Part shown: piece after piece, positions 12,803 through 27,633 of the stretch
Position numbering within the stretch: position 1 is the first letter of the stretch
Layout: every line of letters begins with the position of its first letter
DNA from: Acidobacteriota bacterium
GTDB taxonomy: Bacteria; Acidobacteriota; JAAYUB01
Direction of reading: 5' to 3'
DNA: 37,395 nt
Assembly (NCBI GenBank): GCA_012517875.1
Contig: JAAYUB010000069.1
Span: forward strand, 1 to 37,395
Translations under genes and position numbers: made by a program
The notes under the pieces: model-generated
The model's input: the letters and a program-made list of their open reading frames with translations, nothing else
Databases searched by the model: none
What the model was told of the DNA's origin: nothing

Positions 12803-14208
12803 GGCGTGCCCATGCCGCGGGCCACCACGGCCGCATGGGAGGTCATGCCGCCGCGGGCGGTGAGGATGCCCTGGGAGACTTCCATGCCATGGATGTCGTC
12901 GGGCGTCGTCTCGATGCGCACCAGGATGACCTTCTCCTTCCCCTCGGCCATCGTGACCGCGTCCTCGGACGAGAAGGCGATCCGGCCCACCGCCGCGCCG
13001 GGCGAGGCGGGCAGGCCTTTGGCGATGACCTGAAACGTGTTGCCCGCGTCGAACACCGGGTGCAGCAACTTGTCGAGCTGCTGCGGCTCCACCTTCAGCA
13101 CCGCTTCCTCGGGGCTGATCAGCCCTTCGTCCACCATCTCGCAGGCGATGCGGATGGCGGCGGCGCCGGTGCGCTTGCCGTTGCGGGTCTGCAGCATGAA
13201 CAGGACGCCGTTCTCGATGGTGAACTCGTAGTCCTGCATGTCGCGGTAGTGCTTCTCCAGCCGCTCGGAGATGGCCTTGAGCTGGTCATAGATGACCGGC
13301 ATGGTCTTCTGGAGCTCCTCCAGCTTGAACGGGGTGCGGATACCCGCCACCACGTCCTCGCCCTGGGCGTTGGTCAGAAACTCGCCGTAGAACTCCCGGG
13401 CGCCGGTGGCCGGGTTACGGGTGAAGCCCACACCGGATCCGGAGCTCTCGCCCATGTTGCCGAACACCATCGCCTGCACGTTGACCGCAGTGCCCAGGTT
13501 GTCGGGGATTTCGTTCATCTGGCGGTACTTGATGGCGCGGGGGTTGTTCCACGATTCGAATACCGCGAAGATGGCCAGCCGGAGCTGCTCGCGGGCGTCC
13601 TGCGGGAAGGTTTTCCCGGCACGCTCCAGGACGAACTGCTTGAAGCGGCGGATCATCTCCTGCATGTCATCGGCGGTGAGCTCGGTGTCGAGCTTCACCT
13701 TCCGGGTTTCCTTGATGTGGTCGATGATCCGCTCGAAGTCGTGCTTCGGCACGCCCAGGACGACGTCGGAGAACATCTGGATGAACCGGCGGTAGCAGTC
13801 GTAGGCGAACCGCGGGTTGCCGGTCTTGACACGCAGCGTCTCGACGGTGTCGTCGTTGAGGCCCAGGTTCAGGATGGTGTCCATCATGCCGGGCATGGAA
13901 AACTTGGCGCCCGAGCGTACCGATACAAGCAGCGGTTCCGCGGTGGAGCCCAGCTGCTTGCCCGTGACGGCTTCGAGCCCGGCCAGGGCGGTCATGATCT
14001 GGTCCATGAACTCCTTGGGCAGGCTGCGGTTGTTCTGGTAGTAGATGCCGCACGCCGCCGTGGAGATGGTGAAACCGGGCGGCACGGGAAGCCCGGCGTT
14101 GGTCATCTCGGCCAGGCCGGCGCCCTTGCCGCCCAGGATGTCCTTCATCTTGCCGTGTCCCTCGGCCTTGCCGCGGCCGAACGAGTACACATACTTGTTG
14201 TCTGTCAT
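12727..14208 (-). CDS. ppdK: Pyruvate phosphate dikinase, N-terminal ATP-binding and phosphohistidine domains (frameshifted)
   Basis: PPDK interconverts pyruvate, ATP and phosphate with PEP, AMP and pyrophosphate. This 493-residue fragment holds the ATP-grasp domain (starting [21 protein letters not shown]) and the swivelling phosphohistidine domain with the catalytic histidine 458 in [16 protein letters not shown]. It ends in TGA immediately after TVEFPGGLC. The remainder of the enzyme continues in the -1 frame. Adding one C to the four-C run at 12742-12745 restores a continuous reading ([14 protein letters not shown]). The ATG has an AGGAGG site six bases upstream. The gene follows glyQ-glyS-ino1 on the same strand; glyQS next to ppdK is a known arrangement in other bacteria. 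Confidence 0.88.
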
Positions 14209-14342
14209 GCGATCCTCCTCAGATTGCGAAACGATTGAGATAAATTGTTTATCCTGGGCCGCAGTCCCGCCAGCCGGTCCGGCCGCCGCTCCGGCGTCCG
14301 CCGGGCGGCAGCGGTCCTGCGCCGCGGGCTGGTCCGAAACCG

Positions 14343-14366
14343 GGTCCCGCCGGGCACGGCGGGACC
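14343..14366 (-). terminator. Stem-loop after ino1
   Basis: A perfect 10-bp GC stem (14343-14352 with 14357-14366) with a 4-base loop lies 9 bases past the ino1 stop. There is no T-run, so it may be a weak terminator or an mRNA-processing hairpin between ino1 and ppdK. The rest of the 166-base gap shows only GC-rich sequence. Confidence 0.45.
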
Positions 14367-14374
14367 GCCGGCGC

Positions 14375-15691
14375 CTAGTCGTAGTACTCCAGGCCCAGGT
14401 GGGTGATCTGCTCCTCGCCCATGAGGTAGCGCATCGTGTTCTTCAACTTCATTTTCTGGATGAACAGATCGTGCTCGGGGTAGAGGCCGCGGAGGTGGTG
14501 CGGGCTCTTGAAGAAGAACGAGAGCCACTCCTGGATGCCGTGCATGCCGCAGCGGCCGGCCAGATCCAGCAGCAGGACCAGGTCGAGGACGATGGGCGCG
14601 GCCAGGATGCTGTCCCGGCAGAGGAAGTCGATCTTGATCTGCATCGGGTAGCCCATCCAGCCGAAAATATCGATGTTGTCCCACCCTTCCTTGTTGTCGC
14701 CGCGCGGCGGGTAGTAGTGGATGCGGACCTTGTGGTACAAGTTGCCGTAGAGCTCGGCGTTGAGGTCCGGGCGCAGGATGTGCTCGAGCACGCCCAGTTT
14801 GGAGATCTCCTTCGTCATGAAGGATTCGGGATCATCCAGCACCTCGCCGTCCCGGTTGCCCAGGATGTTGGCGGAGAACCAGCCGGAGACGCCCAGCATG
14901 CGGGCCTTGAGGCCGGGGGCGATGATGGTCTTCATCAGCGTCTGGCCGGTCTTGAAGTCCTTGCCGCAGATGGGGGTCTTGTTCGCCTTGGCCATCTCCT
15001 CGAGGGCGATGGTGTCGGCGCTCAGGTTGGGCGCGCCGTTGGCGTACGGGATGCCCAGCTTGATGGCCGCGTACGCGTAGATCATGCTCGACGGGATGTC
15101 GGGATCGTTGTTCTTGAGGCCGGCCTCGAGCGCCTCGATGGAGGCGTGCACCGGCCCCTCGGGCAGGTAGATCTCGGTGGAGCCGCACCAGATCATGACC
15201 AGCCGGTCGCACTTCTGCTCGGCCTTGAAGCGCTGGATGTCCTCGATGACCATCTGGGCCAGATCCCACTTGGTGGCGGCCTTCTTCACGTTGGGGCCGT
15301 CCAGCTTCTTGACGTAGCGGCGGTCGAACACCGCCGGCATGGGCCGGATCGCCTCCATCTCCTCCCGGAGCGGCAGGAGGTGGTCGTTGCTGATCACGCC
15401 CGCGTGGACCGCCGACTCGTAGGCGGTGTCCTCGAAAATGTCCCAACCGCCGAAGACCAGCTGGTCCAGGCCGGCCAGCGGCAGGAACTCCTTGACCAGC
15501 GGGGTGCGCTTCTCGGTGCGCTTGCCCAGGCGGATGGTGTCCATCTGGGTCATGGAACCGAACGGACGCGCCAGTCCCCGCCGGATGCTCATGACCCCGG
15601 CGATGAACGTGGTGGACACGGCCCCGAGACCGGGGATCAGGATGCCCACGCGACCTTGCGGCGATGCAATCTTCACACCTTTTTCAATCAT
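14375..15691 (-). CDS. ino1: Inositol-3-phosphate synthase (myo-inositol-1-phosphate synthase)
   Basis: Converts glucose 6-phosphate to 1D-myo-inositol 3-phosphate in an NAD-dependent reaction, the entry step to inositol lipids or inositol-based solutes. The product is 438 residues. It starts with the NAD-binding glycine loop GILIPGLGAVSTT (residues about 15-27), has the NGAPNLSADT segment and the K(D)FKTGQT catalytic-lysine region in the middle, and ends with DLVLLLDLAGRCGMHG, all typical of the Ino1 family. The ATG at 15691 has GAGG upstream. It starts 18 bases after the glyS stop and precedes ppdK, so it is probably co-transcribed with glyQS. What inositol is used for here is not visible. 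Confidence 0.92.
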   Translation of the reverse strand: MIEKGVKIASPQGRVGILIPGLGAVSTTFIAGVMSIRRGLARPFGSMTQMDTIRLGKRTEKRTPLVKEFLPLAGLDQLVFGGWDIFEDTAYESAVHAGVISNDHLLPLREEMEAIRPMPAVFDRRYVKKLDGPNVKKAATKWDLAQMVIEDIQRFKAEQKCDRLVMIWCGSTEIYLPEGPVHASIEALEAGLKNNDPDIPSSMIYAYAAIKLGIPYANGAPNLSADTIALEEMAKANKTPICGKDFKTGQTLMKTIIAPGLKARMLGVSGWFSANILGNRDGEVLDDPESFMTKEISKLGVLEHILRPDLNAELYGNLYHKVRIHYYPPRGDNKEGWDNIDIFGWMGYPMQIKIDFLCRDSILAAPIVLDLVLLLDLAGRCGMHGIQEWLSFFFKSPHHLRGLYPEHDLFIQKMKLKNTMRYLMGEEQITHLGLEYYD

Positions 15692-15709
15692 GATGACCTC
15701 GTCACACTG

Positions 15710-17815
15710 TTATGGGTTAACGGATTTGGTTTCTTCGAGCACGAACCGGGAAAAATCGCAGAACGAATCGAACAGCTCGCCGATGGACCGCAGCAGCCGG
15801 AGCCGGTTGGCCCGGATCGCGGCGTCTCCGTGCATGACCAGCACGCCGTCGAAGAACGCGTCCACGGGCTGGGCGAACTGCTCGATGAGCGCCAGTGCGT
15901 CGGCGTACCGGCGGTCGGTGATGGCGGCGCGGACGCGGGGGCCCAGGTCGCCCAGCGTCGCGCCGAGCCGCCGCTCCGCCGCCTCGGCGTACAGCGTCGC
16001 GTCCGGCTCGCCCTCGGGCGGCGCGGCCTGTTTGTCCAGGATGTTGCGGATCCGCTTGCCGGCTGTGAAGATGGACGCAAAGGCGGTCACCGTGCGGATC
16101 GCCTTGAGCGCCTCGAGACGGCGCCGCCCGTCGGCCGGCCGCCGCACAGCCGCGGCGATCACGGCGTTGATCTCGTCGTAACGGAAGCCAGCCTGCCCGT
16201 AAAGGAAGCGCAAGCGCCCCTCCAGCAGCTCCTGCAGCACGGCGGCCGACTCGTCCGCCGGCGCCGTGGCCAGCTCGCCGAGGCCGGCGGTCGCCCGGAG
16301 GAACACCTCGGCCAGGTCCACGTCCAAATCCTTCTCCAGCAGGATGCGGTAGATGCCGGTGGCCATGCGGCGCAGCCCGAACGGATCCTTCGAGCCGGTG
16401 GGCACGAATCCCAGGCCCAGCATGCCGGCCACCGTGTCGGCCTTGTCCGCGACGGACAGGATCGCGCCGGTGAGGGAGGCGGGGATGGGATCGTCCATGC
16501 CCTCCGGCCGGTAGTGCTCGTAGATCGCCTGCCACACTTCCGGGGGGCAGCCCTCCGCGCGGGCGTACAGGCCGCCCATGACGCCCTGCAGCTCGGTGAG
16601 CTCCTTAACCATCTCGGTGGCCAGGTCCACCTTGCAAAGCGCCGCCGCCTCGGCCACGGCGTCTCGCGTGGCGGCCGATTCGCCCAGGTGCTCCGCCAGC
16701 CAGACAGCCAGGGCCTCGACGCGGTGCGTCTTCGCGCCGTAGCTTCCCAGCGCCTCCTGGAAAAGGATGCCCTCCAGCGACGGCGCCCGCTCGGCCAGCT
16801 TCAGTTTGCGGTCGTTATTCCAGAAGAACTCGGCATCCACCAGCCGGGCCTTGAGAACCCGCTCGTGACCGGTCCGGATCAGGCCCTCGCGGTCGGCATC
16901 CATGTTGATCACGGCGAGAAAGCGGGGGGCCAGGCTCCCGTTGGGCCGGTTGAGCGAGAAATACTTCTGATGGTGCCGCATTACGGTGACCAGCACCTCG
17001 GCCGGGATGGCCAGAAACCGTTCCTCGAAGGCGCCCAGGATGACAGTGGGCGACTCGTTGAGGAACACCACCTGCTCCAGGAGCTCCGGATCGCGCGCCG
17101 CCCGGAGGCCCGTCTCGGCCTCGATCCGGGCGATCTCGGTCTGGATCTTCTCGCGGCGCCGGCCGGCGTCCAGGATCACGCCGTTTTCAGTCAGCCGGCG
17201 CTCGTAGTCGGCAAAGTCCTTCACGGGGAAGGCGGCGGCCCCGAGAAAGCGGTGGCCGAAGGAATGGTCGCCGGCGGCCACGCCGGCCACCTCGAAGGGG
17301 ACCACCACCCCGCCCAGCAGGGCCAGCAGGGAGCGGATGGGCCGCACGAACCGGAACTTGTCCTCGCGCCAGTACATGGTTTTCGGGAAGGGGATGCCGC
17401 GGATGATGCCAGGGAGTGCATCGGCCAGCACGTCGGTGGCGGCGCGGCCGGCGATGCGTTTCCGAATGGCGACGTAGCGCCCCTTGGGGGTTTCCGTCAC
17501 GGCCAGCGCGGCGGCGGCGACGCCCTGCTTGGCGGCAAAACCCAGCGCGGCGCGGGTCCAGGCGCCGGCGGCATCCACGCCGGCCGAGGCGGGCGGGCCC
17601 ACCACCTCCTCGTCGCGGTCGGCCTGCCGCTCAGGCACGTTGGCGATGCGCACGACGAGGCGCCGCGGCGTGGCCGAGCGCCACGCCTCGCCGCCGGCCA
17701 GGCCGTGGCGAGCCAGCGTCTGCGTCACTGCGTCGGCCAGATGGTCCAGGGCGTCCCGGATCATGCCGGCCGGGATTTCCTCGGTGCCGATCTCGAGGAG
17801 AAACTCCGCGCCCAT
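15710..17815 (-). CDS. glyS: Glycyl-tRNA synthetase beta subunit
   Basis: The tRNA-recognition subunit of bacterial alpha2beta2 glycyl-tRNA synthetase. The 701-residue product begins FLLEIGTEEIPAGMI, the hallmark N-terminus. It contains MRHHQKYFSL (residues about 278-287), the FFWNNDRKLKL region, the HD-like section with DLATEMVKELTELQGVMGG, and GTGSKDPFGLRR-type PTGSKDPFGLRR near residue 475; the C-terminal helical anticodon-binding part is complete. Length is as expected (about 690). The ATG at 17815 follows a GGAGG site and lies one base after the glyQ stop codon, so the two subunits are made from one transcript. Confidence 0.96.
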   Translation of the reverse strand: MGAEFLLEIGTEEIPAGMIRDALDHLADAVTQTLARHGLAGGEAWRSATPRRLVVRIANVPERQADRDEEVVGPPASAGVDAAGAWTRAALGFAAKQGVAAAALAVTETPKGRYVAIRKRIAGRAATDVLADALPGIIRGIPFPKTMYWREDKFRFVRPIRSLLALLGGVVVPFEVAGVAAGDHSFGHRFLGAAAFPVKDFADYERRLTENGVILDAGRRREKIQTEIARIEAETGLRAARDPELLEQVVFLNESPTVILGAFEERFLAIPAEVLVTVMRHHQKYFSLNRPNGSLAPRFLAVINMDADREGLIRTGHERVLKARLVDAEFFWNNDRKLKLAERAPSLEGILFQEALGSYGAKTHRVEALAVWLAEHLGESAATRDAVAEAAALCKVDLATEMVKELTELQGVMGGLYARAEGCPPEVWQAIYEHYRPEGMDDPIPASLTGAILSVADKADTVAGMLGLGFVPTGSKDPFGLRRMATGIYRILLEKDLDVDLAEVFLRATAGLGELATAPADESAAVLQELLEGRLRFLYGQAGFRYDEINAVIAAAVRRPADGRRRLEALKAIRTVTAFASIFTAGKRIRNILDKQAAPPEGEPDATLYAEAAERRLGATLGDLGPRVRAAITDRRYADALALIEQFAQPVDAFFDGVLVMHGDAAIRANRLRLLRSIGELFDSFCDFSRFVLEETKSVNP

Positions 17816-17816
17816 C

Positions 17817-18704
<888 letters not shown>

Positions 18705-18836: not shown

Positions 18837-19724
18837 TCAGTGCCGGGCGTCCAGCATCCGGCGCAGTGCCGCGATGTGAGCGGGTGTCGTGCCGCAGCAG
18901 CCGCCGATGATTCCCACGCCAAGCGTCGGGAACGCCGCCGCCCGCCCGGCGTAGACGTCGGGCGTCTCGGGCCACACCGGCGCGCCGTCGCGCATCCGGG
19001 GCAGCCCGGCGTTGGCCTGCACCAGCAGCGGCCGGTCGGTGGCGCGGCGCAACTCGGCGGCCACGGCGACCATGGGCTCGATGCCCACGCCGCAGTTGGA
19101 GCCGAGGATGTGGGCGCCGGCCGCAGCCAGCTCCCGAACCGCGCGGGGGATGTCCACGCCCATGATGGTGAAAAAACCGTTCGGCGTGACGTCGAAGGTC
19201 ATGGTGGCGGCCACGGGCACCCCGGGCGCCGTCGTCCGGGCGGCCGTCACCGCCAGGACCGCCTCGGCCAGGTCGGTCATGGTCTCCACGACGATCAGGT
19301 CCACGCCGGCCGCAGCCAGCGCGGCGAGTTGCCGGGCAAACGCGTCGGCCACCACCGCGGGGGGCGTGTCGCCGTACGGCTGGAGCATCCGACCGGTGGG
19401 CCCGCAGGAGGCGGCCACGTAGACGCCGCCGCCGGCGCCCCGCCGCGCGGCGGCCACCGCCGCGGCGTTGATGGCCTCGGTCTGTCCCTCCAGGCCGTAG
19501 AGGGCGAGCTTCAGGGGGGAGCCGCCGAAGGTGTTGGTCTGAACGATGTCGGCGCCCGCAGCGGCGTAGTCGGCGGAGACGGACGCCACGACGTCGGGGC
19601 GGTCAAGGTTGAGCGCCTCGGGACACTCGCCGGTCTTGAGGCCCCGGGCCATGAGCTGGGTGCCCATGGCACCGTCGGCCAGCAGTACCTCGCCGCAGCC
19701 CACGCGCTCGAGGATCGGCCGCAT
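18837..19724 (-). CDS. Zinc-dependent homocysteine S-methyltransferase (MetH N-terminal module type)
   Basis: A stand-alone homocysteine-binding TIM barrel, as in the first module of cobalamin methionine synthase or in betaine-homocysteine methyltransferase. It would take a methyl group from the neighbouring methyl-corrinoid protein and transfer it to homocysteine. The 295 residues show LLADGAMGTQL at the start, the QTNTFGG strand (residues about 62-68), and the three zinc-binding cysteines: Cys211 in GSNCG and Cys276-Cys277 in GGCCGT. No pterin- or cobalamin-binding domain is fused. The ATG at 19724 is one base after the stop of the corrinoid protein gene, so the two are surely co-expressed. 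The partner acceptor is inferred from the family; the homocysteine-zinc motif is directly visible. Confidence 0.85.
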   Translation of the reverse strand: MRPILERVGCGEVLLADGAMGTQLMARGLKTGECPEALNLDRPDVVASVSADYAAAGADIVQTNTFGGSPLKLALYGLEGQTEAINAAAVAAARRGAGGGVYVAASCGPTGRMLQPYGDTPPAVVADAFARQLAALAAAGVDLIVVETMTDLAEAVLAVTAARTTAPGVPVAATMTFDVTPNGFFTIMGVDIPRAVRELAAAGAHILGSNCGVGIEPMVAVAAELRRATDRPLLVQANAGLPRMRDGAPVWPETPDVYAGRAAAFPTLGVGIIGGCCGTTPAHIAALRRMLDARH

Positions 19725-19725
19725 T

Positions 19726-20364
19726 TCAGCGCGCCTCCATCAGGGCGGCCACCTTGTCCACGGCGCTGGCGCCGTCGTAGCCGTAATCATCGGCGCCGAT
19801 CTCGCGGGCGAAATCGGCCGACACAGGCGCGCCGCCGACGATGACGCGCACGCGGCCCGCCAGGCCTCGCTCGCGGAGGAGGTCCACCACCTGCCGCATC
19901 ACCGGCATGGTGGTGGTCAGGAGCGCCGACAGGCCGATCACCCGGGCGCCCTCCCGCTCGGCCGCGTCGACGAAGGCCGCCGGGGCGACGTTGTGTCCCA
20001 GGTCCACCACTTCGTAACCGGCGCCCCGCAGCATGATGGCCACGAGGTTTTTGCCGATGTCGTGGAGGTCGCCCTGCACCGTACCCAGCACCACCCGCCC
20101 CCGCGCGGGCACCCCGTCCCGGATCAGGAGCGGCTTGAGTTGCTCCATGCCGGCGTACATGGCCCGGGCCGCCAGCAGCACATCGGGCAGAAAGATGTCG
20201 TGGCGCTTAAAGCGCTCACCGACCACGTGCATGCCGGCGATGAGCCCGTCGTTGAGGATCCGGCCGGCAGGAAGCCCCTGCGCCACCGCCGCGCGGGTGA
20301 GCCGGAGCACCTCCTGGTCCTCGCCGCGCTGCAGCATCTCGGCCAACTGGGCCAGCGTATCCAT
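19726..20364 (-). CDS. Methyltransferase corrinoid protein (MtbC/MetH cobalamin domain type)
   Basis: Carries the methyl group on cobalamin between a methyltransferase and an acceptor enzyme. The 212 residues consist of an N-terminal four-helix cap (about 1-85) and a Rossmann cobalamin-binding domain. The lower-ligand motif D-x-H-x-x-G is present as D99-L-H101-D-I-G104, followed by GLSALLTTTM and VGGAPVSADFAREIGAD, the usual B12-contacting loops. A TTG lies two codons further upstream, but the ATG at 20364 has GGAGG at proper spacing. It starts two bases after the stop of the activation-domain gene and is followed after one base by the homocysteine methyltransferase. Function is secure as a class; its methyl donor is inferred to be the MttB-like protein. 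Confidence 0.9.
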   Translation of the reverse strand: MDTLAQLAEMLQRGEDQEVLRLTRAAVAQGLPAGRILNDGLIAGMHVVGERFKRHDIFLPDVLLAARAMYAGMEQLKPLLIRDGVPARGRVVLGTVQGDLHDIGKNLVAIMLRGAGYEVVDLGHNVAPAAFVDAAEREGARVIGLSALLTTTMPVMRQVVDLLRERGLAGRVRVIVGGAPVSADFAREIGADDYGYDGASAVDKVAALMEAR

Positions 20365-20366
20365 CG

Positions 20367-21095
20367 TCAACCTCCGTGGTGAATATCGGTGGAATCGGTA
20401 TCCGCGAGCCGCGCGGCGCAGCTCCGGTCCCGGCAGTGCCGGCAGAACGGGAAACCGGCCTCGAACGCGTGGATCGCGGGCGGTCCGGCCAGGACCACGC
20501 CGGTCACCGACTTGAGCGGTTCCATGAGACAGCTCGCGTTCAGGCTCACGCCGATTGCCTCCGGCCGCAACGCCGCGAACAACTTCCGCTGCGCGGTGAT
20601 GTGCCAGCCGCAGTAGCCCGGGCTGTAGCGCCGCAACCGCCAGGCGGTCGCCGCCGGGTCGGCGGCGTCCAGCGTCGCCGCCCAGTCGCGCTCCACCTCG
20701 TCGGCCGCCTGCTCGGCTGCGGCGGAGGCCACGGCGTCGAGCACTGCGCCTGTGGCGAAATCCCCCGCCGCGAACAGCTCGGCGACGCGCCGGCCCGGCG
20801 CGGGCCCGACCGTGGCGGCAAAGAGCGCGCGGCGCCGCGCCCGCGGCTGGATCCGCGCCAGCGGCGCGTCCGGCTCGTTGAGCCCCTCGCCGGCAATGAG
20901 ATCGGCCAGCTCGGGTTCCGCCGCGTCCTGCCAGAGTCCGCGCGGTTCGGCCAGTCGGAGGAACTCGGCCCGGGCGGCCTCGTGCAGCGCCACTGTCCGG
21001 GCGCCGGGGTCCCGGCTGTCCAGGCCCAGCAACCGATACACGCCGGCGGGCTCGGGCACCACCGCCTGTACCGGGAATTCCAGTCGCCGTCGCAT
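20367..21095 (-). CDS. MetH-activation-domain-like protein with C-terminal Cys cluster
   Basis: Resembles the SAM-binding reactivation domain of cobalamin methionine synthase, which rescues oxidised cob(II)alamin by reductive methylation. The 242-residue product is a separate protein. Residues about 156-164 (RYSPGYCGW) correspond to the MetH R-x-x-P-G-Y SAM-binding loop, and residues 187-201 (ASCLMEPLKSVTGVV) correspond to the E/S...P..SVSG strand. The C-terminus has a C218-x2-C221-x4-C226 cluster (FCRHCRDRSC), which could bind iron-sulfur or zinc; this is inference. The start at 21095 is chosen because GGGGAG precedes it; a GTG one codon earlier is possible. Position between the MttB-like and corrinoid genes suggests it keeps the corrinoid protein active. 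Confidence 0.78.
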   Translation of the reverse strand: MRRRLEFPVQAVVPEPAGVYRLLGLDSRDPGARTVALHEAARAEFLRLAEPRGLWQDAAEPELADLIAGEGLNEPDAPLARIQPRARRRALFAATVGPAPGRRVAELFAAGDFATGAVLDAVASAAAEQAADEVERDWAATLDAADPAATAWRLRRYSPGYCGWHITAQRKLFAALRPEAIGVSLNASCLMEPLKSVTGVVLAGPPAIHAFEAGFPFCRHCRDRSCAARLADTDSTDIHHGG

Positions 21096-21111
21096 CACCG
21101 GTCTCCCCGCC

Positions 21112-22572
21112 TCAGCCGGTGTGGGCGGGCAGCCGGTCCATGCCGAAGCGCCGGGCTTCGGCGCTCATCCGTTCCGTGAGCGCCGCCTGCGCCTCCGCCG
21201 GCAGCCGCACCGGCTCCCAGGCGGCCAGGTGGCGGGCCACTTCGGCCCGCGCCCGCTCGCCCAGGGGCAGGCTCCCCTCCTCCAGCCAGCGCGAGCGCTG
21301 CGCGCGGTCCACCACCGGCCCCGGGAAGAGGTGTTCGTGGCGCAGGTGGCGGCGGGTGTGGGCGGCGATGAGCAGGTGTCCCTCGCGGAACAGCTCCTGG
21401 AACAACGGCGCGGCGGGGAAATCCTCACGCGGCTCGATGCCGGCGCGCAGGCGCCGGACCATGGCGCAGATCTCGTTATCGACCACCAGCTTCTCCAGGC
21501 TCTGGCAGCTCTCGAAGTCCAGCATGCCGGGACCGGACACGCTGTCGATCCCCGCCAGCGCCGCCAGCGTGGCGCCGATGCCGGTCTCCCAGCCGGCCTG
21601 CGCGTCGAGGAGCTTGGCGTCGCTGAGCCCGATGTAGCCCTGCGTCGGCAGGCCAAGGCGGTGGCCGATCTCGCTGTAAGCGCAGTCCATCATCATGGTC
21701 TCGATGGCACCCATGGGCGTGGTCTCGTAGCGGACGTCGAAGATCGCCGGCGAACCGCCGTAGAGCGCCGGCGCCCCCGGAGCGGCCAGCTGTGAGATCA
21801 CGATCCCGCTCAGGGTCTCGGCGGTATGCTGCACCAGCGAGCCCGTCAGGGTCACCGGCGCCATGAAGCCGGCCAGCGGCATGGAGACGTATTCCACCGG
21901 GATGCCGGCCCGGGCGCAATCCACCACATTTTGCGAAGTGGCGCCGCTCCATTTGAGCGGCGCGGTGGGACAGCAGGAGAACACGGCCAGCGGCCGTTCG
22001 CGCAGGGATTCGGCCGAGCCGCGCGCCGCGACGAGCAGGTCGCGCATCACCGGAAAGCCTTCCGCGCTGAAGGCGCCGGTGATCACAGGCTTCTCGCAGT
22101 ACAGCAGGCTCAGGTAGAGACGGTAGCTGTCGCCGATCTGCGCATGCACGTCGGCGGCGATCATGGCGGTGCTCTGGCTGGCGATGTGGGGCAGCCGGCT
22201 CACCAGCTTGGCGTAGCGGACATAATCGGCGGTGACGGGATGGCGCACAGCGCGCGTCGCCTCATCCAGAATGTAGATGGCGGACGAGCCGGGCGTGAAG
22301 GTCACTTCGCCGGAACCGAACGCGTGCGTCGCTTCACCCGTCGCGTCGTACAACCGGAAGGCCGCCGGCGCCGTCGCCAGAGCCCGGTCCACGAGGTTGC
22401 CCGGTATATGTACCCGACCGGTCGCGGCCTCGACGCGGGCGCCGCCGGCGTGGAGCAAGTCCACGACCGCCGGGTTGTGGATCTCGACGCCGACGGCGGC
22501 CAGGAGGTCGCGCGCCTCGTCGAGGATTCGTTGCAGCAGCTCATCGGACAGGAATCGGACGTGCGGGCGCAT
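21112..22572 (-). CDS. MttB-superfamily methyltransferase, non-pyrrolysine type
   Basis: Member of the trimethylamine methyltransferase (MttB) superfamily. Members demethylate methylated or quaternary amines and pass the methyl to a corrinoid protein. The 486 residues have the normal family length and fold pattern, with GVEIHNP near residue 28 and the conserved GLPTQGYIGLSDAK ... ETGIGATLAALAG region near residues 330-370. There is no in-frame TAG, so it is not a pyrrolysine enzyme like the archaeal MttB. Known non-pyl relatives act on glycine betaine, carnitine or proline betaine; this substrate is unknown. The ATG at 22572 follows GGAAGGAGGACC, and the frame's earlier start is rejected. The leader has a TACACT -10-like site at 22652-22647 but no clear -35. 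First gene of the operon. Confidence 0.85.
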   Translation of the reverse strand: MRPHVRFLSDELLQRILDEARDLLAAVGVEIHNPAVVDLLHAGGARVEAATGRVHIPGNLVDRALATAPAAFRLYDATGEATHAFGSGEVTFTPGSSAIYILDEATRAVRHPVTADYVRYAKLVSRLPHIASQSTAMIAADVHAQIGDSYRLYLSLLYCEKPVITGAFSAEGFPVMRDLLVAARGSAESLRERPLAVFSCCPTAPLKWSGATSQNVVDCARAGIPVEYVSMPLAGFMAPVTLTGSLVQHTAETLSGIVISQLAAPGAPALYGGSPAIFDVRYETTPMGAIETMMMDCAYSEIGHRLGLPTQGYIGLSDAKLLDAQAGWETGIGATLAALAGIDSVSGPGMLDFESCQSLEKLVVDNEICAMVRRLRAGIEPREDFPAAPLFQELFREGHLLIAAHTRRHLRHEHLFPGPVVDRAQRSRWLEEGSLPLGERARAEVARHLAAWEPVRLPAEAQAALTERMSAEARRFGMDRLPAHTG

Positions 22573-22903: not shown

Positions 22904-24127
22904 TCAGGACACCAGGCCCACCTTGCGGACGCCCCGCTCGAGCTGCGCCACGCGCTCCTCCAGCGTCCCGGTGATGCCGACGGCGATCCGCAGCAGCCCG
23001 GGCGAAAGGCCCATGCGTGCCTGGTCCTCCGGCGAGATCTCGGATGACGTCGACGAGCCGGAGCACGACATCAGGGTGTCGAAGTAGCCCAGCGACACGG
23101 CGATCAGCCCGAACCGCTCGTCGTTCTGCAGCACGTTCAGCAGGTCGTCGGCCCGCTCGCGGGTGCCGCAGTCCACGGTGAGCATGCCGCCGAAACCGTA
23201 GCCCTCGTTCATCATCCGGGCGAAGAGGCCGTGCTGGCCATGCTGCGGCAGCCCCGGGTAGCTGACCGGGGCGCCGATCGCCTGCAGCCGGTCGGCGGCC
23301 GCCTGGGCGCGCCGGCTGTGCTCGCGCATCCGGATGGCCAGGTGCGGCAGGCGCTGCGCCACGTCGAACGCCACCCGCGCGTCCATGACCGGCCCAAGCA
23401 GCATGATCCGGCCGGTGTGCAGGTCCATGAGCTGGAAGACGAAGTCGCGCGAGGCGCAGACCACGCCGCCGATCACATCGCTGGCGCCGTTGACGAATTT
23501 GGTCAGGGAGTGCACCACCACATGGGCGCCAAGCTGGGCCGGCGACATGATCATGGGCGTGAACGTGTTGTCCACCACCAGGGTGGCGCCTCGCTCGCGG
23601 GCCAGCCGGCCCAGAGCCGGGATGTCGGCCACCTTGAGGGTGGGATTGCCCAGCACCTCGGTGTAGAACACCTTGGTTCGCGGCGTGACGGCGCGGGCGA
23701 ACGCCGCGGTGTCGGTGGGATCCGCAAACGTGGTGGTGATGCCCATTTGGGGGAGCAGCTCGCCCAGCAGGGCAAAGGTGCCGCCGTACACCGTGTTGCT
23801 GGCCACGATGTGATCGCCCGCCCGACAGAGCTGGAGCAGTGTGCAGGAGATCGCGGCCATGCCGCTGGCGGTGCAGATGGCCGCCTCGGTGCCCTCCAGC
23901 GCCGCCAGGTAGCGGGCCAGCACGTCGACGGTGGGATTGAAGTGCCGGCTGTAGAGGTAGCAGCCGCCCGTCTCCGGCCCGCGCACGCCGCCGAAGATCT
24001 CGGGCATGGTCCGGGAATCGAGGACGGTGAACGTGGATGACCGCTCGATGGACGGGCAGACGCCCCCGTGCTCGCCAAATTCGCGCCGGGTCAGGGTCAA
24101 CGCCTGCTCGGGATTGTGTCGGTTCAT
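22904..24127 (-). CDS. Cys/Met metabolism PLP-dependent enzyme (methionine gamma-lyase / cystathionine gamma-synthase-like)
   Basis: PLP enzyme of the gamma-family of the Cys/Met metabolism group; such enzymes form or break C-S bonds at the gamma-carbon. The 407 residues hold Y59-S-R61...NPT (the YSR...NPT motif binding the PLP phosphate of the neighbouring subunit), D186 in VVDNTFTP, and the Schiff-base lysine K210 in HSLTKF. The position equivalent to the methionine gamma-lyase active-site cysteine reads YGGTF, so the reaction cannot be fixed: gamma-lyase, O-acyl-homoserine sulfhydrylase and cystathionine gamma-synthase remain possible. The ATG at 24127 has GGAGGGT upstream and a good promoter. 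It lies upstream of the methionine-forming operon but is separated from it by terminators. Confidence 0.85.
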   Translation of the reverse strand: MNRHNPEQALTLTRREFGEHGGVCPSIERSSTFTVLDSRTMPEIFGGVRGPETGGCYLYSRHFNPTVDVLARYLAALEGTEAAICTASGMAAISCTLLQLCRAGDHIVASNTVYGGTFALLGELLPQMGITTTFADPTDTAAFARAVTPRTKVFYTEVLGNPTLKVADIPALGRLARERGATLVVDNTFTPMIMSPAQLGAHVVVHSLTKFVNGASDVIGGVVCASRDFVFQLMDLHTGRIMLLGPVMDARVAFDVAQRLPHLAIRMREHSRRAQAAADRLQAIGAPVSYPGLPQHGQHGLFARMMNEGYGFGGMLTVDCGTRERADDLLNVLQNDERFGLIAVSLGYFDTLMSCSGSSTSSEISPEDQARMGLSPGLLRIAVGITGTLEERVAQLERGVRKVGLVS

Positions 24128-24190
24128 GGATACCCTCCTTGCCGGTTTCGGGAGGGCCGGCGGTTCGGGCCGTGCGCCGGCCAGCCGCTC

Positions 24191-24219
24191 AGTTTAGCGA
24201 CCCGGAACCGGCTTTGCAA
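24191..24219 (-). promoter_or_regulatory. Sigma-70-like promoter of the PLP enzyme gene
   Basis: On the minus strand TTGCAA (24219-24214) and TAAACT (24196-24191) are separated by 17 bases. Predicted transcription starts about 57 bases ahead of the ATG. Confidence 0.55.
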
Positions 24220-24312
24220 CGGGAAAAGCGCCACCCGCCTCGTGGGTTTTGTGGTAAGCTGGGCATTCGATTCCATGCGTCACTGGTGCACCGTCACACG
24301 CGAGGATCGGTC

Positions 24313-27300
24313 ATGGCACACACCTTGCGGGTTTGTCTGCTGCTGGAACTGGCGGGGCTGGTCCTGGCCGCCGCCACTCAGGTTGGAGCACCGGCGCGCC
24401 CGTCCATCCGGGTGGTGGGCGACGCCGCCTACCCGCCGAATCTCTACCTCAACAGTGAGGGCCGACCCGCCGGCTTCGATGTCGAGGTGCTGCGGCTGCT
24501 GGAGCAGCGGACCGGCCGATCCATCGCTATTCAGCTTATGCCGTGGACGCAGGCGATGACCCGGCTGCGCAGCGGGCAAGCCGACGCACTGATGGGCATC
24601 AACCGAACGCCGGAGCGGGAGCAGGAGTTCGATTTCTCCCTGCCGGTGCTCGAGAACCAGGCCGTCATCTTCGTGCCTTATCAGTCGTTCGTGATCCGCT
24701 CCGCCGATGACCTGCGCTCGCGGCGCGTGGGCGCGCAGCGGGACGCGGCCGTCGTCGCCCACATCCGCAAGCAGCACCCGGAGGTGCTGCTGCGGGAATT
24801 CGAAACCGCCGAGGCGGCGCTGGAGGCCCTTCGGCGGGGCGAACTCGACGCGGTCGTCTGCCACCGGATCACCGGTGACTTCGTCCTGGACAAGCGCAAC
24901 TGGCGGGACGTGTTCAAAGTGGTCGGTACGCCGCTGCTCGAGGCGCCCTATTGCCTGGCGGTCCGCAAGGGCGACACCGCCCTGCTGCAGCCGATCAACG
25001 CGGCGCTCCATGACTTGGAGGCCGAGGGCCGGCTCAAGGCGTTGCGGGACGAGTGGTTCGGGCGCGATTACTTCCTCGATTTCGAGTTCGAGCGCAGCTC
25101 TTCGTTCCGGCTTCTGCACACCCTGTTGCTGGGATTTCTCGGCGTCGCCGTATTGGCGGTACTGGTCATCGTGTTCCTGCGGCACCGCATGGCGCGGGCC
25201 CGCCGGCGCGCGGAGAGCGCCGATCAGTACTTCCAAACGCTGATCGCCGGCAGCACCGACATGATCCTGGTGGTGGGCCCCGACCGCCTGATCCGGCACG
25301 TCAGCCCGTCGGTGAAGCGGATCCTCGGTTTCGAAACGGATGAACTGCTGGGGCGCTCCAGCCACGAGTTCATCCATCCGGATGACAACCACCGCTACGA
25401 GGAGGCCATGGCCGATCTCCGGCGGATCGGCATGGCCGCCATCGAAGCCCGGTTCCAGAGCCGCAGCGGCTGGCGGACGCTGGACGCCATCGCCCGCGAT
25501 CTCACGGAGGATCCGCTGGTTTCCGGAATCGTGATCAACGCCCGGGACATCACCGATAAGCGCCGCCGGGAGCGTGTGCAGCAGGCCACGTACGCCATCT
25601 CGGAAGCGGCCAATTCCGCCCAGTCGCTGGATGCGCTGTATGCGGCAATCCATGCCGTGGTGTCCGAGCTGATGCCGGCGGACAACATCTTCATCGCCCT
25701 CTACGACGCCCGCCGGCAGACAGTCTCTTACCCCTACTGGATCGACGCGAACGACCCCGTGCCCGATCCTGAGCCCCTGGGCAAGGGGCTGACCAGCTAC
25801 GTCATCCGCACCGGCACGCCGCTGCTGGCTGACGAACAAACCCTGAACAGCCTGTTCGGCAGCGGCGAGGCGGAGAAGCTCGGTTCCCCCGCCTGCTGCT
25901 GGATGGGCACGCCCCTGCGGATCGCACAGCAGGTCGTCGGCGCCCTGGTGATCCAAAGCTACACCCCGGGGGTGCAGTACGACGGTGACGACCTGGAGAT
26001 GCTGACGTTCATGTCGGGCCAGGTCGCCATGGCCATCCAGCGGAAGCGGGTGGAGCAAACCCTGGCCGACGAGCGGGAGTTCCTCAGCGTCATTCTGCGC
26101 TCCGTCGGCGAAGGTGTCGTCGCCGCCGATCCGGACGGGCACGTGACGCTCATGAACCTGGCCGCCGAACGGTTCACCGGCTGGACGTCGGCCGAGGCTG
26201 CGGGCCGGCCGCTGGGCGAGGTGGTGGTCACCCGGCGCGAGCGCGATCGCGCACCTGTCGCCGACTGGCCGGCCCGAATCCTCGCCTCCGGCCGGCGGCC
26301 CGACGCGACGGACCAGCTCCTGCTTCTGGACCGGAACGGCGGCGAACGCATCGTTTCGGTCAGCGGTGCCCCGATGCGCGATCCCGCCAACCGCGTGATG
26401 GGATTCCTGCTGGTGTTCCGCGATGTGACCGAGAAGCGCCGCGCCGAGGACAACCTGGCCAACGCCCTCCGCCTGGAATCCCTCGGCCTGATGGCCGGAG
26501 GCATTGCGCACGACTTCAACAACATCCTGACAGGCGTCATCGGCCACATCTCGCTCACCAAGATGGCTGTGCCGCCGCAATCCGAGGCGCACCAGCTCCT
26601 GCTGGAGGCGGAGAAGGCCTCGCTGCGGGCGCGCGAGTTGACCAGCCAGCTCCTCACCTTCGCCCGCGGCGGCTTGCCGGTGAAGGAGACCGCCGCGCTG
26701 GGCGAGTTGCTCCGGGACTCGGCGGGGTTCGCCCTGCGGGGTTCGGCGGTCCGCTGCGAATTTCGCCTTCCGCCGGAGCTCTGGCCGGTCGAGGTGGACA
26801 TCAGTCAGATGAATCAGGTGATTCACAACCTGGTCCTCAATGCCATCCAGGCGATGCCGAACGGCGGCTGGATCGCCATCGCCGGCGAGAACGTGGAGCT
26901 CACCGACACCGACGGCCTGCCGCTGCGGCCCGGCCGCTACGTCAAGATCACCATCGAGGACAGCGGCCTCGGCATCCCGGAATCCCACCTGTCCCGGATC
27001 TTCGACCCCTACTTCAGCACCAAGTCGACCGGCCGCGGCCTGGGCCTGCCCACGACCTACTCCATCATCAAGCGGCACGAGGGGCACATCGCGGTGGCCT
27101 CCACCGTCGGCCAGGGCACGGTTTTCCATGTGTATCTCCCCGCCGGCAGCCAGCCGCCGGTGTCGGCGCGCCCCGCGGCCCAGCCGGTCAAACCGTCCAC
27201 GGGCCGGATCCTGGTCATGGACGACGAGGACGTCGTCCGAAACACGGCGCAGAAGATGCTGTTGCGGCTGGGATACGACGTCGCCTGCGCCCGCGACGGC

Positions 27301-27633
27301 GCCGAGGCGTTGGAGATGTACCGCCAATCCGTGAAGGCCGGACGCGCGTTCGACGCCGTGATCATGGACCTGACCGTCCCCGGCGGGATGGGCGGCCGGG
27401 AGGCGGTGCGATCCCTGGCCGCCATGGATCCCAAGTCCCGGGTGATCGTCTCGAGCGGCTACTCCAACGATCCCATCATGAGCGACTACCGCAAGTTCGG
27501 ATTTGCTGACGTGATCATGAAGCCCTATCGGCTCGAGGATCTGGCCAAGGTGTTGGGACGAGTCATCGGGGCGGCGGAGAAGAACAAAGAGACAGGCGAC
27601 AGGAGATCAGGAGACAGGAAATGGGGTGGGTGA
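24313..27633 (+). CDS. BvgS-like hybrid histidine kinase (SBP-TM-PAS-GAF-PAS-HisKA-HATPase-REC)
   Basis: A 1106-residue hybrid sensor kinase. Order: signal/anchor (1-25); a periplasmic solute-binding type 3 domain (about 30-255, starting IRVVGDAAYPPN); one membrane segment (about 266-290); PAS (about 305-416); GAF (about 430-580); PAS (about 590-705); HisKA with His733 in GGIAHDFNN; HATPase with DSGLGIP and GRGLGL; and a receiver with phospho-aspartate Asp1019 in VIMDLTVPGG. The solute-binding domain implies it senses a small molecule, perhaps an amino acid. The frame continues upstream but the ATG at 24313 has GAGGA six bases ahead. The last 17 residues, rich in Arg, Asp, Gly and Lys, are encoded by the mosaic repeat that starts at about 27589, so the C-terminus is probably recent. 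Confidence 0.88.
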   Translation: MAHTLRVCLLLELAGLVLAAATQVGAPARPSIRVVGDAAYPPNLYLNSEGRPAGFDVEVLRLLEQRTGRSIAIQLMPWTQAMTRLRSGQADALMGINRTPEREQEFDFSLPVLENQAVIFVPYQSFVIRSADDLRSRRVGAQRDAAVVAHIRKQHPEVLLREFETAEAALEALRRGELDAVVCHRITGDFVLDKRNWRDVFKVVGTPLLEAPYCLAVRKGDTALLQPINAALHDLEAEGRLKALRDEWFGRDYFLDFEFERSSSFRLLHTLLLGFLGVAVLAVLVIVFLRHRMARARRRAESADQYFQTLIAGSTDMILVVGPDRLIRHVSPSVKRILGFETDELLGRSSHEFIHPDDNHRYEEAMADLRRIGMAAIEARFQSRSGWRTLDAIARDLTEDPLVSGIVINARDITDKRRRERVQQATYAISEAANSAQSLDALYAAIHAVVSELMPADNIFIALYDARRQTVSYPYWIDANDPVPDPEPLGKGLTSYVIRTGTPLLADEQTLNSLFGSGEAEKLGSPACCWMGTPLRIAQQVVGALVIQSYTPGVQYDGDDLEMLTFMSGQVAMAIQRKRVEQTLADEREFLSVILRSVGEGVVAADPDGHVTLMNLAAERFTGWTSAEAAGRPLGEVVVTRRERDRAPVADWPARILASGRRPDATDQLLLLDRNGGERIVSVSGAPMRDPANRVMGFLLVFRDVTEKRRAEDNLANALRLESLGLMAGGIAHDFNNILTGVIGHISLTKMAVPPQSEAHQLLLEAEKASLRARELTSQLLTFARGGLPVKETAALGELLRDSAGFALRGSAVRCEFRLPPELWPVEVDISQMNQVIHNLVLNAIQAMPNGGWIAIAGENVELTDTDGLPLRPGRYVKITIEDSGLGIPESHLSRIFDPYFSTKSTGRGLGLPTTYSIIKRHEGHIAVASTVGQGTVFHVYLPAGSQPPVSARPAAQPVKPSTGRILVMDDEDVVRNTAQKMLLRLGYDVACARDGAEALEMYRQSVKAGRAFDAVIMDLTVPGGMGGREAVRSLAAMDPKSRVIVSSGYSNDPIMSDYRKFGFADVIMKPYRLEDLAKVLGRVIGAAEKNKETGDRRSGDRKWGG

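Follow-up and report, generated by a model that had tools for sequence, protein, structure and literature searches.

A cluster of four adjacent minus-strand genes on contig JAAYUB010000069.1 of an Acidobacteriota bacterium (assembly GCA_012517875.1; the whole stretch of 37,395 nucleotides that was analyzed is called the window) probably encodes a four-protein methionine synthase, which would be dependent on cobalamin but not on folate and would deliver methyl groups via a corrinoid protein to homocysteine. As read from the open reading frames (ORFs) of the window and their Pfam matches, its components are, in the direction of transcription:

21112..22572, minus strand: putative non-pyrrolysine methyl-donor:corrinoid methyltransferase of the MttB superfamily (MttB), 486 aa; Pfam MTTB, 4.2e-73
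20367..21095, minus strand: free-standing MetH-activation-like protein (ACT), putative corrinoid reactivase, 242 aa from ATG; Pfam Met_synt_B12, 1e-10
19726..20364, minus strand: corrinoid (cobalamin-binding) protein (CORR), MtgC/MttC-like, 212 aa; Pfam B12-binding, 2.9e-30, and B12-binding_2, 1.6e-20
18837..19724, minus strand: homocysteine S-methyltransferase (HMT), 295 aa; Pfam S-methyl_trans, 4.8e-64

The ORFs of the activation-like protein (20367-21098, 243 aa) and of the corrinoid protein (19726-20370) start at GTG and TTG respectively; counted with the ATG starts at 21095 and 20364, the genes are separated by 16, 2 and 1 bp. The MttB-like protein begins with MRP, the same as its homologues. 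Thus ORF positions, Pfam matches and conservation bear out the four genes, the strand, the motifs and the gaps of the original prediction, which had been made from the letters of this DNA. Moreover, the homocysteine, corrinoid and activation modules of MetH (Pfam S-methyl_trans, B12-binding and Met_synt_B12) are all present in the operon, each as its own chain, and no pterin-binding (folate) domain was found by Pfam in the operon proteins. In MetH of Escherichia coli, Thermus and human, these three modules likewise form one functional unit; the operon differs in that i) it consists of four chains, ii) an MttB-type TIM barrel stands in place of the pterin module, and iii) its activation protein is short, does not conserve the arginine of the RxxPGY motif and carries a four-cysteine pattern.

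In the proposed reaction cycle, the MttB-like protein would transfer a methyl group from a methylated compound (a quaternary amine or similar) to Co(I) of the corrinoid protein, yielding methyl-Co(III). The zinc-dependent HMT would then pass the methyl group to homocysteine, giving methionine and Co(I), while the activation-like protein would return accidentally oxidised Co(II) to the active state. In which direction the methyl group flows, that homocysteine accepts it and that the activation-like protein reactivates the corrinoid are inferred from what is known of these families and from gene content.

A profile built from ten MttB orthologues was searched on the genome collection and yielded 274 relatives, of which the best 80 were kept; loci were picked by MttB similarity alone, and their neighborhoods were mapped via tblastn with the window proteins. 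Among the 67 assessable loci (at least 2.4 kb downstream of MttB, or the full set), 46 carried MttB-ACT-CORR-HMT in identical order, and since they had been chosen on MttB alone, the arrangement is not due to chance. The incomplete loci comprised six without ACT downstream (including L148, where ACT lies just upstream of MttB), three without HMT, two with CORR only, one with ACT only and nine with MttB alone. MttB orthologues without partners were seen at L082, L093, L102, L109, L125, L131, L139 and L153, mostly in Acidobacteria. With phylum labels as given in the genome records, full four-gene sets were found in at least ten phylum-level groups: Acidobacteriota (13 of 22), Eisenbacteria (4 of 4), Planctomycetota (7 of 14), Zixibacteria (5 of 5), Aegiri/Fermentibacteria (5 of 5), WOR-3/Stahlbacteria (4 of 4), Cloacimonadota (3 of 3), as well as TA06 and several single cases.

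Across 42 operons the mean identities were 0.69 for MttB, 0.62 for CORR, 0.59 for HMT and 0.43 for ACT. The pairwise distance matrices of the four proteins were correlated (r 0.70-0.83; Mantel p 0.001), which fits inheritance as a unit, shared species history giving part of the correlation. On the other hand, a wider conserved operon was rejected, because ORF clustering of the neighborhoods gave no fifth recurrent family. Comparative genomics therefore supports the four genes as a conserved unit, as well as the earlier proposal that an MttB-type protein has replaced the folate module.

For other methionine genes, Pterin_bind was searched in the 46 operon-bearing genomes, MetE and MTHFR in 25 of these plus the window's own genome, and S-methyl_trans in the 25. 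The MetH pterin domain, MetE/core-MetE and MTHFR were all absent from ten genomes (G174, G175, G177, G178, G180, G181, G186, G189, G191 and G193), in which the pterin matches were FolP-like only (none at all in G177, G180 and G181; one further sub-threshold fragment in G189). Two of the ten are single-contig chromosome records, G175 (WOR-3, CP070802.1) and G189 (Zixibacteria, CP070756.1), which lends greater weight to the absences in them. Furthermore, the operon HMT was the sole S-methyl_trans protein in seven of them (G177, G178, G180, G181, G189, G191 and G193). Of 15 genomes tested for S-adenosylhomocysteinase, 14 had it, both chromosomes and nine of the ten among them (G178 alone lacked it); turnover of S-adenosylmethionine (AdoMet) thus supplies homocysteine, which would be expected to be remethylated. 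Judged from these absences, the operon would be the only recognizable route from homocysteine to methionine in the ten genomes. An unrecognized second methionine synthase, or import of methionine with homocysteine being discarded, could also account for the pattern.

The ten genomes also bear on a catabolic explanation, in which the purpose of the operon is to demethylate an osmolyte or amine, and homocysteine is a mere sink. Betaine-homocysteine methyltransferase (BHMT) has reportedly been proposed to use homocysteine as a convenient methyl sink in some bacteria. Characterized proteins of the MttB superfamily do serve methyl catabolism (PMC12155760), and the chemistry would be the same. However, no conserved transporter, dimethylglycine/sarcosine dehydrogenase or C1-oxidation gene was adjacent to the operon, and the operon is kept where it is the sole recognized methionine synthase; such a demethylase is an unlikely reading of these genes.

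Homocysteine is very probably the methyl acceptor of the proposed synthase: besides MttB, the unit encodes no methyltransferase but HMT, which in seven genomes is also the sole S-methyl_trans protein. Gene content thereby supports the acceptor named in the original prediction. The zinc-type residues Cys211, Cys276 and Cys277 of HMT were conserved in at least 95% of 54 HMT rows, and its nearest solved structure was the N-terminal half of Thermotoga maritima MetH (E 6.5e-49). The enzyme belongs to the S-methyl_trans family, not to that of the MetE-type catalytic domain (Meth_synt_2). In a quick tree, the operon HMTs grouped together (SH-aLRT 91), apart from the domain of the own MetH, the HMT-MTHFR fusion described below and Sinorhizobium meliloti Bmt. 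As for the corrinoid protein, the motif D99-x-H101-x-x-G104 (numbered from ATG; D101/H103/G106 in the TTG-started ORF) was kept in at least 95% of 67 aligned rows, and the best NCBIfam model was the glycine-betaine protein MtgC_2, at 207 bits and thus under its cut-off of 370.

Several lines of evidence weigh against the operon as a dedicated folate-free synthase: i) the ordinary folate route to methionine is present in the window's own genome (4.0 Mb, 96% complete, one MTTB protein), which encodes a 1110-aa MetH next to a 625-aa HMT-MTHFR (MetF-type) fusion, so that on paper the operon is unneeded there; ii) MttB stands alone at the nine assessable loci counted above, and others have no adjacent HMT or ACT; iii) at L049 (1361-3714 and 4620-6806), a member of the window's own clade, MttB-CORR is transcribed divergently from genes for a pterin methyltransferase, free-standing, and a MetF-like protein, without HMT or ACT, hence the MttB-like protein can apparently pair with a folate acceptor; iv) eight of the ten genomes that lack the other synthases are fragmented metagenome-assembled genomes, where absences are weaker, and G177 has only 1.1 Mb.

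The first of these points led us to reject the operon as a replacement of a missing MetH in its own genome, where it is an additional methionine route. No MetE-type protein was found there (no PF01717 match). The check put forward earlier, on whether metH, metE or metF is absent where the operon occurs, thus comes out positive for the ten genomes, two of them single-contig, whereas MetH and the MetF-type fusion are present in the genome from which it arose. A set that is redundant beside MetH and lacks real function in this lineage would agree with the presence of MetH and the MetF-type fusion; however, none of the four ORFs is disrupted, their proteins are 89-99% identical to those of two same-genus genomes, and they preserve the known catalytic motifs, which makes a functionless set highly improbable.

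The same two enzymes and the L049 arrangement would also suit a different acceptor, namely tetrahydrofolate (THF), reached via a reversed MetH or an unrecognized pterin enzyme, with HMT being only accessory. Published MttB-superfamily systems methylate THF through MtgD, MtqA or MthA, among them the quaternary-amine systems of Eubacterium limosum (PMC12478193, PMC12155760). However, Pterin_bind matched only two proteins in the own genome, MetH and the dihydropteroate synthase-like FolP (encoded between FtsH-like and diadenylate-cyclase-like genes, as their translations read); FolP is thus the only free-standing one, and a free-standing pterin methyltransferase (MtgD) was not found by this search. 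Moreover, in the ten operon genomes without a MetH pterin domain and MTHFR, methyl-THF would neither be made that way nor be oxidized by MetF. We therefore consider transfer to THF very unlikely. The comparison of L049 with the operon indicates that the acceptor module is exchangeable, which supports HMT as the enzyme that methylates the acceptor at those loci that encode it.

Other combinations of the same families were found in a sister MttB group (about 43-49% identical; other genomes of the phylum), with the orders CORR-HMT-ACT-MttB (L050, L055 and L057), HMT-CORR-MttB (L056) and HMT-MttB-ACT (L058 and L059). A further locus of the same phylum, L068 (G092:C32:17000-32000), holds several MttB paralogues, corrinoid proteins, a pterin methyltransferase and MTHFR, and looks like a THF-linked methyltransferase system.

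With regard to the methyl donor, the MTTB profile covers the whole MttB-like protein, and its cognate corrinoid gene lies two genes downstream. In the alignment, residue 316 is Leu where Methanosarcina barkeri MttB has pyrrolysine 334, in agreement with the earlier call of a non-pyrrolysine member. Its AlphaFold2 model (pLDDT 86) superposed with template-modelling (TM) scores of 0.90 on both MttB (7xcl) and MtgB (9yce) and of 0.87 on the S. meliloti protein (4yyc). Sequence identity was 30% to M. barkeri MttB, 28.7% to MtgB and 27-29% to MttB-family proteins of S. meliloti and Ruegeria, copies that may not be functional MtgB. In the tree, 44 MttB rows including that of the window formed a clade with 100/100 support, outside which fell MtgB, MttB and the S. 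meliloti and Ruegeria proteins, the reference branches being long and the outer placement hence unsure. Polar residues conserved in the clade, T135, R151, T165, R184 and E227 among others, have no counterpart in MttB and MtgB. The substrate pocket therefore likely differs, which does not amount to a substrate assignment. Glycine betaine as the donor by kinship was not supported, since MtgB falls outside the clade, and because the protein sits outside the characterized MtgB and MttB, the donor cannot be named.

Such separation, these private polar residues and the lack of any osmolyte gene as a conserved neighbor would also be expected if the clade had moved from amines to a sulfonium, methoxy or other methyl compound. 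This idea overlaps with the proposed synthase, from which it departs in the donor only. On the other hand, the non-pyrrolysine members with known substrates act on acidic quaternary amines (PMC12155760), and we regard a non-amine donor as rather doubtful.

Matches to the Rfam family PYLIS_3 (the mttB pyrrolysine insertion sequence) were found inside non-pyrrolysine mttB genes (L097, 6948-7045; L126, 6943-7042; other loci). As the aligned residue is no amber codon, they probably reflect coding homology and call for caution about that Rfam family.

The activation-like protein, as its name in the original prediction implied, matched Met_synt_B12 and had the corresponding predicted fold: for its model (pLDDT 92) the best match was T. 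maritima TM0269 (1j6r, E 2.4e-11), followed by MetH reactivation domains. The likeness is incomplete at the motif. Of the MetH RxxPGY signature, SPGY is conserved but the arginine occurs in only 27 of 69 rows (the window has R157), and there is a four-cysteine pattern composed of SPGYC with Cys163 and of C219-x2-C222-x4-C227-x2-R230 (numbering of the GTG-started, 243-aa form). Cys163 was present in 69 of 69 rows and C219/C222/C227 in 68 of 68 ungapped rows, while the own MetH reads SPGYPVWP and has no such cysteines in that region. The four-cysteine pattern as a whole is not unique to the operon, an idea that was rejected: the C-terminal C-x2-C-x4/5-C part is shared with further free-standing activation proteins (e.g., L050-L052 and Peptoclostridium L158), and only Cys163 is special. 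These cysteines may hold a metal or iron-sulfur (Fe-S) site. Furthermore, a RACo/RamA C-terminal domain was not found in 20 of 23 genomes, the own one among them (DUF1638 lay outside this search), and for this reason the activation-like protein is likely the corrinoid reactivase.

A more far-reaching version of the proposal, put forward tentatively as a possibility below even chance, is that a folate-free synthase operates across many uncultured phyla and is the sole one in some, that its donor is new to the MttB family, and that activation proceeds via the cysteine-bound metal or Fe-S instead of the AdoMet site of MetH.

Beyond the operon, glyQ and glyS lie downstream on the same strand, and a gene of Cys/Met metabolism lies upstream:

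22904..24127, minus strand: Cys/Met-metabolism enzyme dependent on pyridoxal phosphate (PLP); Pfam Cys_Met_Meta_PP, 2.4e-86

This gene, of the methionine gamma-lyase / homoserine sulfhydrylase family, ends 331 bp before the MttB gene. As a candidate homocysteine-forming sulfhydrylase, its product could possibly supply the homocysteine acceptor. It is outside the conserved four-gene unit: the PLP gene and glyQ are kept beside the operon only in the own genus (two same-genus genomes), and in L119 the gene immediately upstream of MttB encodes a homologue with 32% identity. At Rfam gathering scores, neither a SAM nor a cobalamin riboswitch was found in the window or in 39 related loci. Elsewhere in the window, a divergent hybrid sensor kinase (24154-27633, plus strand) carries SBP_bac_3, PAS, GAF, HisKA, HATPase and response-regulator domains by Pfam, and a 1293-aa ORF antisense to glyS and its neighbors (14045-17926, plus strand) is a shadow ORF of high-GC coding sequence and no gene.

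Among published systems, MtgBCDE, known from Ruegeria pomeroyi and relatives, comes nearest (PMC12478193). Both systems combine an MttB-family protein with a separate corrinoid protein and a separate homocysteine methyltransferase on one corrinoid core; MtgBCDE ties methionine synthesis to demethylation, as the operon would. In R. pomeroyi, MtgC and MtgD serve betaine demethylation as well as methionine synthesis, the homocysteine methyltransferase gene mtgE (product MtgE) is usually apart, MtgD is essential as methyl groups flow via THF, and RamA plus DUF1638 carry out reactivation (PMC12478193). In contrast, the own genome here is without MtgD, HMT is encoded by the last gene of the unit, and a MetH-activation-like protein lies within the operon. 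MtgB, MttB and the E. limosum proteins MtpB, MtcB, MtyB and MthB (PMC9842639, PMC12155760) share the fold and a corrinoid partner, and MtgB is non-pyrrolysine as well; those systems pass methyl groups to THF (coenzyme M in methanogens) and use RamA-type activases, whereas the MttB-like protein here has an HMT partner in a genome without RamA. MesA-MesD, which are MetE-like core methionine synthases (PMC7857596), also make methionine without methyl-folate, and MesA-C are thought to use methyl groups from corrinoid proteins; they differ in being of the MetE family and in relying on corrinoids of the central one-carbon (C1) pathway or on an oxygen-dependent partner, while the operon HMT is a MetH/BHMT-family enzyme with a donor module of its own. 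Finally, BHMT would catalyze the same overall conversion if the donor were betaine, but it is a single cobalamin-free protein with direct transfer, whereas the operon would carry the methyl group on a corrinoid. No description of an MttB-activation-corrinoid-HMT operon lacking MtgD was found in the literature searched (open-licence papers).

It is commonly assumed that methionine synthesis requires either methyl-folate or one of the known core synthases supplied by a central C1 pathway. Accordingly scored, operon-bearing bacteria without metH, metE and metF would appear as methionine auxotrophs, yet they probably remethylate homocysteine from another methyl source. Knowing the donor would connect the supply of methionine with methylated compounds of sediments, groundwater and soil; furthermore, it would account for a gap seen in many genomes of candidate phyla and assign a role to a large MttB clade.

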